Source: Candidatus Puniceispirillum sp. (GTDB taxonomy: Bacteria; Pseudomonadota; Alphaproteobacteria; Puniceispirillales; Puniceispirillaceae). Taken from it: a stretch of DNA of 64,000 bases. This document shows positions 13,968-20,679 of the stretch, piece after piece (the first letter of the stretch is position 1; every line of letters starts with the position of its first letter). Below the pieces are notes generated by a model. The model was not told the origin of the DNA. It worked only from the letters and a program-made list of their open reading frames with translations, and searched no databases. The position numbers were made by a program, and so were the translations under genes. Where the stretch lies: assembly GCA_028382965.1 (NCBI GenBank), contig JAOEUK010000001.1, forward strand, positions 469,001 to 533,000, in the 5' to 3' direction.

Positions 13968-14938
13968 CAAGGCTTGTTGTTGATATTGGTGGTACGTCTA
14001 CACGTGTAGCCTACAAGTTTAGCAATGACTCTGATGTAAAAAATGCAGAACAGTTTTTATGCGCTGATTATGAGGTTGTGGATGTCTTGCTGGCCCAATA
14101 CTGTGCACGTCACAAACTTATTGTTGATGAACTTGTTCTGGCTGTTGCTGGACCAGTTAGTGGTCCAAAAGTTGATATTACAAACAATCATTGGCATTTT
14201 GATGCTGGATCTTTGGCGGCCACTCTTGGGGCGCAGAGTTACCTTTTGATTAATGATTTTACGGCACAGGCGTTGGCTCATTGCAACGTATTCTTTGGAA
14301 AAAAAATCTCTACCAATCAAGATTTGAAATGTCTGCGGAAGGGTAAAGAAGACCTAGCGACGCCTATAATCGTGATTGGTCCAGGTACTGGCCTTGGTGT
14401 TGCAGCGCTGGTCTGTGTGGGTTCTGATGTAAAGGTTATTGAGGGTGAGGGTGGCCATGTAAGCTATTCGCCAAGAACGCTAGCTGAGACGCTAGTGTTT
14501 TCTACTTTACAAAAACAATTTGGCCATGTTTCTGCTGAAAGAATTGTCAGTGGACCTGGGTTAGAAGCAATATATAAGATTCAAACTAGTGAATCAAAAC
14601 TGGCCCCAGAAATTGGAGCTTTGGCACTTGCTGGTAATGGATACGCTCTAGCTGCTGTCAATTTAATGTTGCAAAGTCTTGCAACAGTCGCGGCAAATGT
14701 AACAATAAGCTTTGGCGCGAAGGCAGGAATTGTCATTGCTGGCGGTATTGTTCCAAAATTGGCCCCGCTTCTCAACTCAAGCGGCTTCATTGACCGTTTT
14801 AACGATCATGGTCGCCGCAGTTCATACTTAGAACCTATACCTGTTTATTTATCTACAAATCCTTTTGCCGCTTTACGCGGTGCTTCAAATGCTTTTGAGA
14901 ATAAATATCTCAAAAGTAAGATCTGCCATCTCGTTTAG
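13964..14938 (+). CDS. glk: Glucokinase (Glk family)
   Basis: 324 aa ATP-dependent glucokinase of the bacterial Glk (COG0837) type. The phosphate-1 motif VVDIGGTSTRVAY is at residues 5-17, the substrate loop LLINDFTAQA near 93, phosphate-2 GPGTGLGVAAL near 138, and GEGGHVSYSPRT (substrate-binding Glu/His) near 160. The start ATG overlaps the stop of the isomerase gene (ATGA at 13964-13967). The product phosphorylates glucose to glucose-6-phosphate. It ends convergent with the DUF4396 gene, overlapping by 4 bp. Confidence 0.87.
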   Translation: MTRLVVDIGGTSTRVAYKFSNDSDVKNAEQFLCADYEVVDVLLAQYCARHKLIVDELVLAVAGPVSGPKVDITNNHWHFDAGSLAATLGAQSYLLINDFTAQALAHCNVFFGKKISTNQDLKCLRKGKEDLATPIIVIGPGTGLGVAALVCVGSDVKVIEGEGGHVSYSPRTLAETLVFSTLQKQFGHVSAERIVSGPGLEAIYKIQTSESKLAPEIGALALAGNGYALAAVNLMLQSLATVAANVTISFGAKAGIVIAGGIVPKLAPLLNSSGFIDRFNDHGRRSSYLEPIPVYLSTNPFAALRGASNAFENKYLKSKICHLV

Positions 14939-15381
14939 TGACATGCTTTTCCGAGCGCCTTTAGTCGCCAGTAATTGTAGGGCAATGGAGTTAAAAACCC
15001 TGCGAGGAGCATAATAGGAAGTGCTACTGGGGTGATTTTAGCACCGCCTGTAATTGCAATATCAGTTAAGTTCATTGCCAATTCCATTGCGATCATTGAT
15101 ATCAGTGACATACCCAAAGCAGTCTTCATCGCAAGGGTAAAAGTCATTTGTCGGCAAAGAATAAATGTTTCAAGAACTATTGATGTTAATAACCCATTCA
15201 TAATGGCAAGTGCCATTATACTCGAAGTTGGCCAAGCAATATTGTAGACATCAAAAATTGCTATAGTTCCAATATCACCTATTGAACAACCTATTAGACA
15301 CCAAACGGTGTTGTAAGAGGCGCTTTGCCATGTTTGACGACATTGCCAATTAATATTTAATATTGCAGCAGCTGATTCCAT
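14935..15381 (-). CDS. DUF4396 membrane protein, probably copper-induced
   Basis: 148 aa from the ATG at 15381, with about four hydrophobic segments (including IAWPTSSIMALAIMNGLL and PVALPIMLLAGFLTPLPY). This resembles DUF4396 proteins, whose function is unknown. The frame is open 37 codons further, to 15492, but that extension covers a CueR-type promoter (15455-15485), so translation must start downstream of it. AGAGG 11 nt before 15381 supports the chosen start. Because the promoter is a MerR-family Cu(I)-sensor type and the divergent gene encodes a CueR-like regulator, a role in copper handling is inferred. A conserved NWQC segment near the N-terminus might be relevant to metal contact. 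Confidence 0.7.
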   Translation of the reverse strand: MESAAAILNINWQCRQTWQSASYNTVWCLIGCSIGDIGTIAIFDVYNIAWPTSSIMALAIMNGLLTSIVLETFILCRQMTFTLAMKTALGMSLISMIAMELAMNLTDIAITGGAKITPVALPIMLLAGFLTPLPYNYWRLKALGKACH

Positions 15382-15454
15382 TTTATTGTTTGCCTCTATT
15401 GTAGTTGTTGATGGTAGACCAACCTTGCCATTAAAAATTTTTATAACTAAAGTA

Positions 15455-15485
15455 TGAATAAACCCTCCTCCTACTGGAAGGTCAA
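15455..15485 (-). promoter_or_regulatory. CueR-type promoter with 19 bp spacer and inverted-repeat operator
   Basis: On the minus strand a -35 TTGACC (15480-15485) and a -10 TATTCA (15455-15460) are separated by exactly 19 bp. This over-long spacer is the hallmark of MerR-family-controlled promoters. Within it lies an imperfect dyad, ACCTTCC-N7-GGAGGGT on the minus strand (15462-15482), close to the CueR box consensus ACCTTCC-N7-GGAAGGT. It drives the DUF4396 gene leftwards. Confidence 0.82.
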
Positions 15486-15538
15486 GGGTCACGCTTTATG
15501 GTTTACATAATAACTAGAGATTAACTGGAGATCAGATT

Positions 15539-15937
15539 TTGTACAAAATCAGTGAGGCTGCGAAAAGGGCTAATTTACCAGTTAAAACCGTTCGTTATTA
15601 TGGTGATATTGGACTCGTTATTCCAGCGGGCCGTTCCAAATCTGATTACCGAATCTATATGGACGCTGATGTTGCAAAGCTCTCATTTGTTGGTAGAGCC
15701 CGGCGTTATAATTTTTCAATTAGTCAATGTCGCGACCTTTTAGACCTTTATGAAGATGAGCAGAGGCCAAGTGCTGTGGTGAAAAAAATTACTTTGGAAA
15801 AGATAGCTGAGATTGACTGTAAACTTAGAGAGCTGCAAGAGCTGCGGGACGATTTGCAGCATTTGGCTGGAAATTGTTGTGGCGATGCTCGACCTGATTG
15901 TCCAATTATAGATAAACTCGCAACGGGTCATGATTAA
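15539..15937 (+). CDS. cueR: Cu(I)-responsive MerR-family regulator (CueR-like)
   Basis: 132 aa MerR-family activator. The N-terminal winged HTH is at residues 1-70 (ISEAAKRANLPVKTVRYY), and the dimerisation helix is at 80-110. The metal loop NCCGDARPDCPII holds C113 and C121, spaced like CueR C112/C120. Ser78 occupies the position that is Ser in monovalent-ion sensors and Cys in Hg/Zn/Pb sensors. The start is a TTG at 15539 with CTGGAG 8 nt upstream; no ATG fits. Divergent from DUF4396, whose promoter carries a CueR box. No copper ATPase CopA is in the window. Confidence 0.85.
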   Translation: MYKISEAAKRANLPVKTVRYYGDIGLVIPAGRSKSDYRIYMDADVAKLSFVGRARRYNFSISQCRDLLDLYEDEQRPSAVVKKITLEKIAEIDCKLRELQELRDDLQHLAGNCCGDARPDCPIIDKLATGHD

Positions 15938-16145: not shown

Positions 16146-17657
16146 ATGGATCTGCAAACTTTCAACAGGCTGTCACTAACGATGCAAGTGGACAATGACA
16201 TAGAACCCCCTCTAAATAATGGCAGGGTCGCGGTTATAGATATTGGTTCAAATTCACTACGATTGGTTGTTTATGACAAAAATGGTGCATACCCTGCTCC
16301 TCTTTTTGATGAGCGTGCAAATTGCCGATTGGGTGAGGGGTTAGATCAAACTGGGGAATTGAACCCAGAACGTGTTCAGTATGCTTTGGAAACTTTAACT
16401 AGGTTTTCAGCCATTATTAAGGAGTTGACAGTTAATAGTTGTTATCCGATTGCAACCGCTGCAGTTCGGCGTGCCAAGAATGGCGCAGAGTTCACAAAAC
16501 CAGCTCAAGATATACTCGGTCACCCTGTGAAAATTCTTTCACAAGCGGATGAGATAAACCACGTTTCACGCGGGCTCACTTTAAATCTACCTGAAGCCAG
16601 TGGCTTGATTGCTGACCTTGGTGGAGGCAGCATTGAAATAATAGCTTTAAGGCGCGGGAAGGTCTGCCACTCTGTTAGTTTGAATTTTGGGCATTTATCC
16701 AGCTTAACAGATCAAGAGATCATGAGCGCGTTAAGAGAGCACTCTTGGATTAGGAATTTTGGCGCTAAACAGCTTTTTGGCGTTGGTGGTAGCTTTAGAT
16801 CGATTGGTTCAGCTTTTATTAGCCGGACGGGCTATCCCTTGCGGGTTTTGCATGGACTGAAGATTAAACGAAGGAATGTCTTAGAAGTCTGCAATGACTT
16901 AACTGCGAATGAACCCAATTTAGAGGGTGTGCCGCCAACACGTGTGAAAACAATCCCGGTTGCTGCAATGATTATTCATGCACTGGTTGAGTTTTCACGT
17001 GTTTATCGAGTCACAATAAGCGGTACCAGTGTTCGTGATGGTGTAATTGCCATCAACGAACTAAATGCCGATCAGCAGGCTGACTTCTTAATGGCAGTAA
17101 GTGAAGAAATTGCAGGTTCAACGGGAAGAGTTGCTAACGTTTCAACCTTATTACAACAATTTTTAAAGCCTCTCTCCAAAATTTGTCTGGCTGGCTCGGA
17201 CAGATTAATTAAAGTGGCTGCAAATATGGCTGATCTGGGTTGGCATGAGCATGGCGACTTGGGGGGGGATATAGCGTCGCGGCATGTTCTGAGTTTGCCT
17301 GTTAACTGTGTTACGCATAAAGAGCGCGTGTGGCTTTCTACAGCTCTTTACCACCGACATTTCGGCTTGAAGGTAACAAAATTACGTCCACAAGATTTGG
17401 ACATGCTTCTGAGTAAAAAGCGAATTGCAGATGCCACAATCATTGGCTTGGCAATGCGGTTTGCATTGGTGTTTTCTGCTGGCGCGACTGCTCCTTTAAA
17501 TTTTATAAGATTGAAATTGAAAGACAAAACTCTGACTTTAATAGTTGATCCGTTGATTGAGGATCTGTTTGATCGTCGGTGTAGAAGTAGGTTTAAACAA
17601 TTGGCGGAGCATGCTGGCTGTGTTCCAAAAATTATTATCAAAAAAACACTTCTATGA
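16146..17657 (+). CDS. ppx: Exopolyphosphatase / Ppx-GppA phosphatase
   Basis: 503 aa Ppx/GppA family protein of the actin-like ASKHA fold. The phosphate-binding loops are AVIDIGSNSLRLVVYD at residues 28-43 and GLIADLGGGSIEIIAL near 155-170. An extra C-terminal helical (HD-like) region fills out to Ppx length. It hydrolyses terminal phosphates from polyphosphate (or pppGpp for GppA). The neighbouring PiT transporter and PPK2 favour exopolyphosphatase. The start has GGAG about 8 nt upstream. The 208 bp before it (15938-16145) is AT-rich and shows nothing else recognisable. Confidence 0.85.
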   Translation: MDLQTFNRLSLTMQVDNDIEPPLNNGRVAVIDIGSNSLRLVVYDKNGAYPAPLFDERANCRLGEGLDQTGELNPERVQYALETLTRFSAIIKELTVNSCYPIATAAVRRAKNGAEFTKPAQDILGHPVKILSQADEINHVSRGLTLNLPEASGLIADLGGGSIEIIALRRGKVCHSVSLNFGHLSSLTDQEIMSALREHSWIRNFGAKQLFGVGGSFRSIGSAFISRTGYPLRVLHGLKIKRRNVLEVCNDLTANEPNLEGVPPTRVKTIPVAAMIIHALVEFSRVYRVTISGTSVRDGVIAINELNADQQADFLMAVSEEIAGSTGRVANVSTLLQQFLKPLSKICLAGSDRLIKVAANMADLGWHEHGDLGGDIASRHVLSLPVNCVTHKERVWLSTALYHRHFGLKVTKLRPQDLDMLLSKKRIADATIIGLAMRFALVFSAGATAPLNFIRLKLKDKTLTLIVDPLIEDLFDRRCRSRFKQLAEHAGCVPKIIIKKTLL

Positions 17658-17744
17658 CAGGTAAAAATTTCTTTGATTGATATGAATTATATGTTAGCTC
17701 CTCTTCAATATTTAATGTTCAAATATTATTGAGGGTTAAAGTTC

Positions 17745-19238
17745 ATGTCTAACAGTTCTCCTTCGAGTAAAGACCGATACGTTAGAGATTTGCAGCGATT
17801 AGACTCGCAGCAAACACAAGTGCGCACATTTTTGGCCAAGCTTTTCCCTTTTTTCATAGCATTGATTTTTCTTGCACTTGTCGGAGTCTACGGCGGGCTC
17901 AGTTTGCAAGTTGCTGATGAGAATTTGATCATGCTTGTTACAGCTGCCATTATTGGGGGCTATATGGCTCTCAATATTGGCGCCAACGATGTAGCTAATA
18001 ACATGGGCCCTGCTGTTGGTGGTCGAGTGCTCACAGTTATGTCAGCAGTTTGCATAGCCGCTGTTTGTGAGAGCGCGGGAGCGTTACTGGCCGGTGGTGA
18101 CGTTGTCAAGACTGTTGCGAAAGGGATCATAAGTCCTGGTGAAGGACTAAGTATAGCCGATTTTAGAGATTTAATGCTAAGCGCTTTGTTTGCAGCGGCG
18201 TTGTGGGTGAATTTGGCGACCTTTTTAAATGCTCCTGTTTCGACTACGCACTCTATTGTGGGTGGTGTATTGGGGGCAGGAATAGCTGCAGCCGGCTTTG
18301 GCCTAGTTAATTGGATTACGATGTCAAAAATTGCTGCTAGCTGGGTGATTTCTCCTGTCTTTGGTGGCATAGTAGCCGCAGTTCTGCTGCTATTTATTCA
18401 GTTAAAGGTCTTTAATGCTGAAGATCGCATAAAAGCATCAAAAAGGTGGGTTCCAATTTTAATTGGCCTGATGGCTGGAGCTTTTTCCGCATACATGGCA
18501 ATGAAGGGGTTGAAAAAGATTTGGAGGCCTTCCTCGGTCGAGATTACTTTTTATTCATTATTTAGCTTTTTAATTTTTTGGGTTATTTCAATTCCATATA
18601 TTTCAAGTTTGAGCAAATCTTTAACCAGTAGTAAAAAAGACGTAAACTCTTTGTTTAACTTGCCACTGATCCTTGGTGTGGCACTTTTAAGCTTTGCCCA
18701 TGGAGCAAATGACGTTGCTAATGCGATTGGCCCATTGGCTGCAATTGTTTCAACCTTTAGCGATACATCTGTTGCGGCAAAAGTGTCTATACCATTTTGG
18801 GTTATGGTAATTGGAGCGGTTGGTTTGGCACTGGGGTTGCTCTTATTTGGCCCTAAATTAATTCACACTGTGGGCGATCAAATAACACGACTGAATGCCC
18901 CTCGTGCTTATTGTGTGGCGCTTGCATCGGCGACCACAGTATTAATTGCGACTACGCTGGGCTTACCTGTTAGCTCAACTCATATAGCGATTGGTGCGAT
19001 TTTTGGAGTTGGGTTTCTAAGAGAGTTTCTGGAAAACCCAAATAAAAGACGATTGAGGCCTGGCCACCAACTCAATGCAACCTCAAGCGACGCTTTTGGT
19101 AATGTTAATGCAAGATTGAGACGTAAATTAGTCCGACGTAAATTTGTTTTAAGCATTGCTGCCGCATGGGTAATTACCGTACCAGCCTCTGCTACCATTG
19201 CTGCTATACTTTTTTTCGCCTTACATGCTTTAATATAA
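17745..19238 (+). CDS. pit: PiT-family inorganic phosphate transporter
   Basis: 497 aa integral membrane transporter with the duplicated PiT signature. The first copy is ALNIGANDVANNMGPAVGG near residues 75-93 and NAPVSTTHSIVGGVLGAG near 162. The second copy is SFAHGANDVANAIGPLAAI near 317 and LPVSSTHIAIGAIFGVGF near 407. It takes up phosphate or metal-phosphate with H+ or Na+. The N-terminus has a short soluble segment before the first membrane span. No PhoU-like partner gene is adjacent. Its 3' end overlaps the convergent Nudix gene by 35 bp. Downstream of ppx, it probably feeds the polyphosphate pool. Confidence 0.9.
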   Translation: MSNSSPSSKDRYVRDLQRLDSQQTQVRTFLAKLFPFFIALIFLALVGVYGGLSLQVADENLIMLVTAAIIGGYMALNIGANDVANNMGPAVGGRVLTVMSAVCIAAVCESAGALLAGGDVVKTVAKGIISPGEGLSIADFRDLMLSALFAAALWVNLATFLNAPVSTTHSIVGGVLGAGIAAAGFGLVNWITMSKIAASWVISPVFGGIVAAVLLLFIQLKVFNAEDRIKASKRWVPILIGLMAGAFSAYMAMKGLKKIWRPSSVEITFYSLFSFLIFWVISIPYISSLSKSLTSSKKDVNSLFNLPLILGVALLSFAHGANDVANAIGPLAAIVSTFSDTSVAAKVSIPFWVMVIGAVGLALGLLLFGPKLIHTVGDQITRLNAPRAYCVALASATTVLIATTLGLPVSSTHIAIGAIFGVGFLREFLENPNKRRLRPGHQLNATSSDAFGNVNARLRRKLVRRKFVLSIAAAWVITVPASATIAAILFFALHALI

Positions 19239-19692
19239 GAGGCTTTAAAGACGCAAACAGATTAATTACTCTTAAAAAATCCTCTCGGTCTGTGACTCTG
19301 TCGGCACTATCTAAAAGAGCCCAGTGCCTCTGCCGCTTTTTAAATTCAGGCCATTCATCTAATTGCTCTTCAACCAACATCGGATAGTAGGTCACTGCAA
19401 CATTTTTTGTAGCACCAAAATCACTCTTTGTGATCACATTAGTCATGGGAATTTGTTCAAGCAGTGACCCCTTCACCCCTGCTTCGTCAAAGGCACATCG
19501 TAAGCAACCTTTTTTATGACTTTCTTTCAACTCTAAATCACACTTGGGCAATATCCACCGCCCTCTTCCTATTGATGTTACAAACAACACTGCAATATTT
19601 CCTTCTTTTACATCAAAAGGAATAATCCCAACTTTATGATCCATAATATTTATTTCTTTCAGTCTTTTTGGTTGGTTAGGCATAATGGGCAT
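19204..19692 (-). CDS. Nudix-fold protein with degenerate Nudix box
   Basis: About 162 aa. The fold matches the diphosphoinositol polyphosphate/diadenosine polyphosphate hydrolase-like Nudix proteins: GRWILPKC before the box, then YYPMLV, DEWPEFKKRQRHW and EDFLRVINLF. The Nudix box is damaged. Where the consensus is G-x5-E-x7-REUxEExGU, this protein has C-x5-E-x7-RCAFDEAGV, so the leading Gly and the Glu after Arg are Cys and the next catalytic Glu is Asp. Metal-dependent hydrolysis may be weakened or lost. Starts at 19692, 19683 or 19644 are all possible, with no strong ribosome site. It follows PPK2, suggesting a polyphosphate or nucleotide polyphosphate link. Confidence 0.72.
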   Translation of the reverse strand: MPIMPNQPKRLKEINIMDHKVGIIPFDVKEGNIAVLFVTSIGRGRWILPKCDLELKESHKKGCLRCAFDEAGVKGSLLEQIPMTNVITKSDFGATKNVAVTYYPMLVEEQLDEWPEFKKRQRHWALLDSADRVTDREDFLRVINLFASLKPLILKHVRRKKV

Positions 19693-19758
19693 TGCTTGAA
19701 AAATTGGTATAAAAATGTGCAGTAAATTGTTAGTTTTATCAGCGTAGCAAATCAAGTT

Positions 19759-20679
19759 TTAGAACATTTTTGGAACATAAAGCTCATTTTGAAGTGTTTG
19801 CCTTTCGTAATCGGGGTCAAAAAGCCGTTCAGGCAATGTAACCCTTTTTTGATCAACTTCAGCGTAAGGGATTCTTGAGAGGATATGAGCCATACAATTG
19901 AGTCGCTCTCGCCGTTTATCATTTCCCTCCACAATATACCATGGGGCCTCAGTTATTGAAGTCCGTTCAAACATTTCTTCCTTGGCTTTTGTGTATTGTT
20001 CCCAGCGAATGCGACTTTGCAAGTCCATCTCAGATAACTTCCATTGCTTCATTGGGTCGTGAATGCGCATGAGGAAACGCAACTGTTGCTCCTCATCGCT
20101 AATTGAAAACCAGTATTTGAGTACAATAATACCCGAGCGTACCAGCATCTTTTCAAATTCAGTCACGTCTTGAAAAAACTGCTCAACCTGTAGTTCGGTT
20201 GCAAACCCCATAACACGTTCAACACCTGCGCGGTTGTACCAGGATCGATCAAATAATATGATTTCGCCGCCAGCTGGCAAATAAGGAACATAACGCTGAA
20301 AGTACCATTGCGACATTTCTCTTTCTGTCGGCTTAGGCAGAGCGACTGCACGTGCAACACGTGGATCCATCCGCTGTGTTATTCGTTTTATTACGCTGCC
20401 TTTACCAGCGCTATCTCTTCCCTCACAGATTATCAAGATCTTGGCGTTTGTTTCCTTTACCCAATCTTGTAATTTTATCATCTCAGCCTGAAGCGAAAGT
20501 AAGCTATGATAGTATTCACGGCTGGGCATGTCGGATGGGTGTTTTTCTTGATACGCTTGACGAAGTTTTTTGGATGTCACCATATCTTCAAAATCAAGTT
20601 CTAGGATTTCATCAATTAAATCATTTGTTGCCTGATCAGGGTCAAAAGGGTCATTCATAGTGAAATACATTTCTGCCAC
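19759..20679 (-). CDS. ppk2: Polyphosphate kinase 2
   Basis: About 300 aa PPK2 of the single-domain class, which transfers phosphate between polyphosphate and nucleoside diphosphates. Walker A GRDSAGKGS is at about residues 88-96, the lid region includes PKPTEREMSQWYFQRY, and Walker B is LFDRSWYNRAGVE near 143. The signature WKLSEMDLQSRIRWEQYTKAKEEMF is split along 230-255. Start choices are GTG 20679, ATG 20670 or ATG 20658, without a decisive ribosome site. It is transcribed with the Nudix gene (66 bp gap from the chosen Nudix start) and faces ppx-pit, so making, degrading and supplying polyphosphate are grouped in about 4.5 kb. Confidence 0.9.
   Translation of the reverse strand: MAEMYFTMNDPFDPDQATNDLIDEILELDFEDMVTSKKLRQAYQEKHPSDMPSREYYHSLLSLQAEMIKLQDWVKETNAKILIICEGRDSAGKGSVIKRITQRMDPRVARAVALPKPTEREMSQWYFQRYVPYLPAGGEIILFDRSWYNRAGVERVMGFATELQVEQFFQDVTEFEKMLVRSGIIVLKYWFSISDEEQQLRFLMRIHDPMKQWKLSEMDLQSRIRWEQYTKAKEEMFERTSITEAPWYIVEGNDKRRERLNCMAHILSRIPYAEVDQKRVTLPERLFDPDYERQTLQNELYVPKMF

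Follow-up and report, generated by a model that had tools for sequence, protein, structure and literature searches.

CueR senses Cu(I) in the cytoplasm, and its usual target is CopA. The CueR signal and its 19-bp promoter spacer are described in the sections on CueR of Permina et al. 2006 (PMC1526738), which also predict CueR sites upstream of Vibrio genes for cytochrome c. Passages of PMC7558416 name copA, cueO and copZ as targets that mostly serve detoxification, their promoters being turned on when Cu(I) is in excess, and list oprC of P. aeruginosa, an uptake gene, as CueR-regulated too. The DUF4396 family is almost without literature: among 5.39 million papers searched, none names PF14342, and a single one mentions the domain, in a passage where it flanks a metal-resistance island.

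We analysed a stretch of 64,000 nucleotides (the window) from Candidatus Puniceispirillum sp., a SAR116-type ocean bacterium with a genome of 2,377,654 bases (2.38 Mb), in which a gene for a short DUF4396 protein and a divergent cueR gene flank a promoter that reads into DUF4396 (Table 1). Our main reading, to which we assign a probability of roughly 0.6, is that the DUF4396 product is a CueR-induced membrane protein that handles Cu(I) and probably exports it in place of CopA. At its 3' end the DUF4396 gene overlaps a convergent glucokinase gene by 4 bases (14935-14938), and on the far side of cueR lies a phosphate block (16146-20679) comprising genes for Ppx/GppA (16146-17657), a PHO4 phosphate transporter (17745-19238) and, on the minus strand, PPK2 (19759-20679).

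Table 1. Features of the cueR-DUF4396 locus, in coordinates of the window.
Feature	Position	Strand	Details
DUF4396 gene, short type, 148 aa	14935..15381	minus	ATG at 15381, stop at 14937-14935; PF14342
Leader between -10 and ATG	15382..15454	minus	taken to be wrongly part of the longest reading frame
Probable ribosome-binding site GAGG of the DUF4396 gene	15393..15396	minus	11 nt before ATG; inferred, read from sequence
CueR-type promoter	15455..15485	minus	-35 TTGACC at 15485-15480, 19-bp spacer, -10 TATTCA at 15460-15455
CueR dyad ACCTTCC-N7-GGAGGGT	15462..15482	minus	1 mismatch
Probable ribosome-binding site GGAG of cueR	15527..15530	plus	inferred, read from sequence
cueR, predicted Cu(I)-responsive MerR-family activator	15539..15937	plus	TTG start; TIGR02044; C113/C121/S78

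The promoter had been proposed by an earlier sequence-only reading of this DNA, and its elements, their spacing and their position inside the longest DUF4396 frame were all confirmed by reading the sequence. The dyad differs at one position from ACCTTCC-N7-GGAAGGT and sits inside the spacer. When the full promoter pattern (21 specified bases) was scanned across the genome allowing up to 3 mismatches, this site, with 1 mismatch, was the single occurrence, and a reversed control pattern gave 0 occurrences at the same threshold. The dyad by itself, again at up to 3 mismatches, was found 51 times per strand vs 67 for its control, and is no better than chance; the whole promoter carries the evidence.

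The longest DUF4396 frame starts at 15492, upstream of the -35 element, a start that the same reading had judged wrong. Two results bear this out: there is no in-frame ATG, GTG or TTG between the -10 element and the ATG at 15381, and in G013 and G014, the nearest relatives examined (protein 84% identical), two in-frame stops separate the promoter from the aligned ATG, the promoter lying 104 bases upstream of that ATG as it does in the window. Since the leader thus carries stops in these relatives and offers no other start codon here, the start is placed at 15381; in many relatives, too, an ATG stands at the corresponding position. The divergent gene, described earlier as CueR-like, does carry the three named residues, which we take to be equivalent to C112, C120 and Ser77 of E. 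coli CueR. Its product scores 147.6 bits against TIGR02044 as a protein (cut-off 147.4) and 146.9, just below, in the genome scan, and we assign the gene as cueR, borderline by score.

Conservation of the promoter was assessed across two overlapping sets of loci. DUF4396 was matched in 105 of 151 genomes in a search of relatives and was over the cut-off in 28 of 397 genomes of a phylum sample. Among the best 80 of 570 relatives, which make up our locus set, the closest named one is the SAR116 cluster single cell AG-325-I21 (84% identical), followed by other SAR116 and Puniceispirillum records. After 3 loci with short upstream sequence were dropped, 50 of the remaining 77 carry the full promoter within 150 bases upstream at up to 6/21 mismatches, and in 47 of the 50 the distance from promoter to aligned start is 44 to 72 bases, gene starts in this set being extrapolated from the alignment and not annotated. 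The corresponding controls gave 0.0048 matches per shuffled upstream region and 3 among 526 other reading frames of these loci, one of the three overlapping DUF4396. The promoter is present in 38/40 loci with an adjacent cueR and in 12/37 without, and the 27 loci lacking a promoter at 6 mismatches include 25 without an adjacent cueR. In the source's own family the promoter precedes 36 of 41 DUF4396 genes (26/28 cueR-linked, 10/13 unlinked), drawn from 40 of 53 family genomes with a DUF4396 match; because this set and that of 77 loci overlap, the two counts are not independent, and the upstream sequences of L082 and L211 are identical.

Within the genus, all nine genes without an adjacent cueR (9/9) keep the promoter at up to 4 mismatches; cueR lies elsewhere in 8 of these 9 genomes, and none was found in the ninth (G009). 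Because the promoter is kept in all nine, it belongs to DUF4396 independently of whether cueR is next door. The earlier proposal that CueR control links DUF4396 to the Cu(I) response is thus supported beyond the window, and copper induction of the gene is, on sequence grounds, very likely. Two other origins of the box were considered and set aside: chance, rejected on its uniqueness in the genome together with conservation relative to shuffles and other frames, and a role only as cueR's autoregulatory site, rejected on its facing DUF4396 and persisting there without an adjacent cueR.

Several arrangements among the relatives are worth recording in their own right. In sister species whose cueR lies away from DUF4396 (L173, also L230-L233 and L175), a CueR-like dyad is kept upstream of cueR with 1-2 mismatches by eye. 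One of these genomes, G003 (L173, 2017-2044), holds a nearly intact divergent CueR promoter (3/21 mismatches) that faces no gene and was perhaps left behind after DUF4396 moved; G004 and G015 have a weaker version only, and G002 and G020 none. The cueR genes of L173 and L175 adjoin a frame whose product resembles polyphosphate kinase 1. A record titled as a Pelagibacteraceae single cell (L160) has a short DUF4396 and neither CueR promoter nor cueR in the locus.

The window protein matches PF14342 at 114.4 bits (cut-off 27) and has no match to either TIGR01511 or PF00122. Its short subfamily is marked by the motifs WCLxGCxIGD and GKxCH; many other types have N-terminal extensions, with no copper context seen. 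Across 49 aligned proteins, C28, C32, M79, M91, M96, M99, M103, M124 and C147 are identical in all 49, as are the acidic residues D36, E71, E100 and D107, and C14 is identical in 46. Four long helices are seen in the AlphaFold model (mean pLDDT 85), spanning residues 15-45, 52-75, 91-111 and 120-142, of which the fourth is divided into two segments. Both ends would face the cytoplasm, judging from positive charges at the two termini and in the loop between them, a pattern that K115 does not follow. Cu(I) could then plausibly enter from the cytoplasmic side at C14 and C147/H148 and pass to C28/C32 and the methionine ladder in the membrane.

Foldseek against the PDB returned nothing with E up to 0.001. 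Its best row, at a non-significant E of 0.75, is NqrD, a subunit of the Na+-pumping NADH dehydrogenase, and viral structure models gave no match at the same threshold; the resemblance to NqrD/RnfE (Z about 5-6) and to an Mtr subunit is in a range common for helical bundles. A profile search of PDB sequences gave 0 matches and a single-sequence search one at chance level (E 0.75). No exporter family was matched in Pfam, where only PF14342 matches all 16 members and other families match one member (best E 0.0023). As there is no significant resemblance in the PDB, the fold gives no indication for or against transport.

The lack of CopA, noted earlier for the window, holds for the whole genome, which has no P-type ATPase match. 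The Cu-ATPase model TIGR01511 was over its cut-off in 0 of 37 family genomes including the source's own (G028 yields a 17.8-bit scrap), and the P-type ATPase domain PF00122, of any kind, was likewise found in 0 of 37; 25 of these genomes are at least 90% complete, and both models match all 14 control genomes. A set of family genomes (G000-G036) without any P-type ATPase domain is unusual in itself. A CusA-type RND pump was over the cut-off in 0 of 61 relatives, but in only 3 of 14 controls, with weaker RND matches in 60 of the 61, and another RND copper pump may be present. Cu-ATPase is over the cut-off in 12 of 50 genomes with a short DUF4396 (L082-L130 and L133, a named isolate, out of 80) vs 85 of 142 genomes in a sample of the class, a comparison that is confounded by kinship and by unknown completeness and is only supportive. 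Two cultured isolates of the locus set, Hirschia maritima and Sneathiella sedimenti, have a Cu-ATPase besides DUF4396. Because these 12 genomes keep CopA, short DUF4396 is not a strict replacement for it.

Taken together, these features are consistent with the following course of events. As cytoplasmic Cu(I) rises, CueR at 15482-15462 would take it up and distort the promoter with its 19-bp spacer, switching on the DUF4396 gene. The product, a predicted inner-membrane protein of 148 residues and four long helices, would bind Cu(I) via Cys28/Cys32 of helix 1, Met91/96/99/103 of helix 3 and, at the two termini that are probably cytoplasmic, Cys14/Cys147. It would most likely carry the ion out, perhaps in exchange for protons through D36, E71, E100 and D107. 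In this way it would fill the role of CopA, whose gene was not found in the source's family, and periplasmic Cu(I) would be oxidised by a multicopper oxidase and cytochrome c, which are frequent partners in relatives and are encoded elsewhere in the source genome. Export of cytoplasmic Cu(I) is the most parsimonious mechanism, and we put its chances at somewhat better than even; the residue path and the proton coupling are speculative. The broader proposition, that short DUF4396 proteins are a family of small, probably proton-driven Cu(I) exporters that replaced the copper P-type ATPase, widespread elsewhere, as the effector of CueR in the source's family, is tentative and falls a little short of even odds.

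The genes around DUF4396 in relatives bear on the copper role itself and on the reading that competes most directly with export. Neighbour clusters were identified by Pfam on one representative per cluster. Cytochrome c occurs in 27 of 80 loci, where 27 of the cluster's 28 members are on the same strand and typically the next gene; multicopper oxidase occurs in 15 (11 on the same strand), and CopC, CopD and cytochrome c' are present in 15, 14 and 5 loci, respectively. Of the 80 loci, 38 have one or more of these partners nearby and the other 42 have none within 3.5 kb; in 25, DUF4396 has no labelled neighbour, and 14 contain only cueR and DUF4396. Fusions extend the association: two DUF4396 proteins of other types are joined to a multicopper oxidase and have CueR promoters nearby. 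One of these fusions is divergent from copA, with a CueR promoter facing each gene (the one facing the fusion ~350 bases from its start) and cueR downstream of copA. The idea that DUF4396 itself takes part in copper handling gains support from the operon partners, the oxidase fusion, the lack of a P-type ATPase match and the invariant cysteines and methionines, and a copper role for the protein is, judged from sequence, highly probable.

The same partners are what would be expected under the main rival to the exporter reading, namely that DUF4396 accepts Cu(I) within the membrane, or acts there as a redox partner, and presents it to a multicopper oxidase in the periplasm, while cytochrome c receives the electrons. 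The frequency of both neighbours, the oxidase fusions and the NqrD row, non-significant as it is, all point this way, as does a single frame in L067 (553-1956, reverse strand) in which a c-type cytochrome and a long-type DUF4396 are fused. However, four family genomes (G017, G018, G024 and G027, 91-99% complete) have no oxidase match and yet carry DUF4396 with its promoter (3 to 6 mismatches), and a regulator that senses the cytoplasmic pool favours a protein acting on that pool; we consider the acceptor role unlikely. In the source genome, multicopper oxidase, cytochrome c and cytochrome c' form a cluster of their own on contig 9, where no CueR promoter precedes them in a 10 kb stretch, the best match having 6/21 mismatches and lying on the strand opposite those genes.

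A less probable alternative casts DUF4396 as a supplier of copper for cuproenzyme assembly, in the maturation of oxidase or cytochrome oxidase, with CueR adjusting delivery. ATPases of the CcoI/FixI type feed cytochrome oxidases, and the family genomes without a P-type ATPase match are also without this type; CopC and CopD among the partners would fit as well. CueR promoters, however, respond to a surplus of Cu(I), and most targets given in passages of PMC7558416 belong to detoxification, which makes a supply role improbable.

How far the copper link reaches across the domain was surveyed in 20 of the 27 phylum-sample genomes, besides the source's own, with DUF4396 over the cut-off. Of these loci, all with other types of DUF4396, 13 have neither copper-gene neighbours (tblastn, eight queries) nor the promoter. 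Another short type, which carries an HCLSGC motif, does have a CueR promoter. The question raised by the sequence-only reading, whether DUF4396 genes generally carry CueR boxes, is thus answered affirmatively for close relatives and negatively for most other types examined: the copper link would seem to cover the short subfamily together with certain fused or short forms, and DUF4396 at large may not be specific to copper. A search of plasmids returned only two Streptomyces records, ~32% identical. These 13 loci would suit a reading in which the gene is copper-regulated while its own function is not copper-specific, or in which the promoter serves the regulator alone, but this reading is very improbable for the window gene, whose promoter faces DUF4396 and stays in the nine congeners without an adjacent cueR, and whose subfamily has many copper proteins as operon partners and an invariant Cys/Met pattern.

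The exporter reading can be set against described systems at several levels. The window protein is a member of Pfam DUF4396 (PF14342), but of a short subfamily with its own two motifs. Small multidrug resistance exporters of the EmrE-like kind are small, four-helix proteins in which an intramembrane acidic residue is conserved; they have no sequence match to DUF4396 and serve as a possible working analogue only. A link to Cu(I) sensing gives one DUF4396 subfamily a testable function, and it points to a way in which bacteria of a family with no P-type ATPase match might deal with copper. The predicted Vibrio sites (PMC1526738) likewise place CueR control beyond copA and cueO, including at cytochrome c genes; here the first gene is DUF4396, with cytochrome c often next in relatives, and neither DUF4396 nor an unnamed membrane family appears in the sections of that paper on CueR. 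Also close are CueR with copA/cueO of the E. coli type and HmrR with actP (sections of PMC1526738), which share with this locus the regulator family, the dyad, the promoter with a 19-bp spacer and a membrane protein as main target; in a genome without a P-type ATPase match, that target is here a DUF4396 protein instead of a P-type ATPase.
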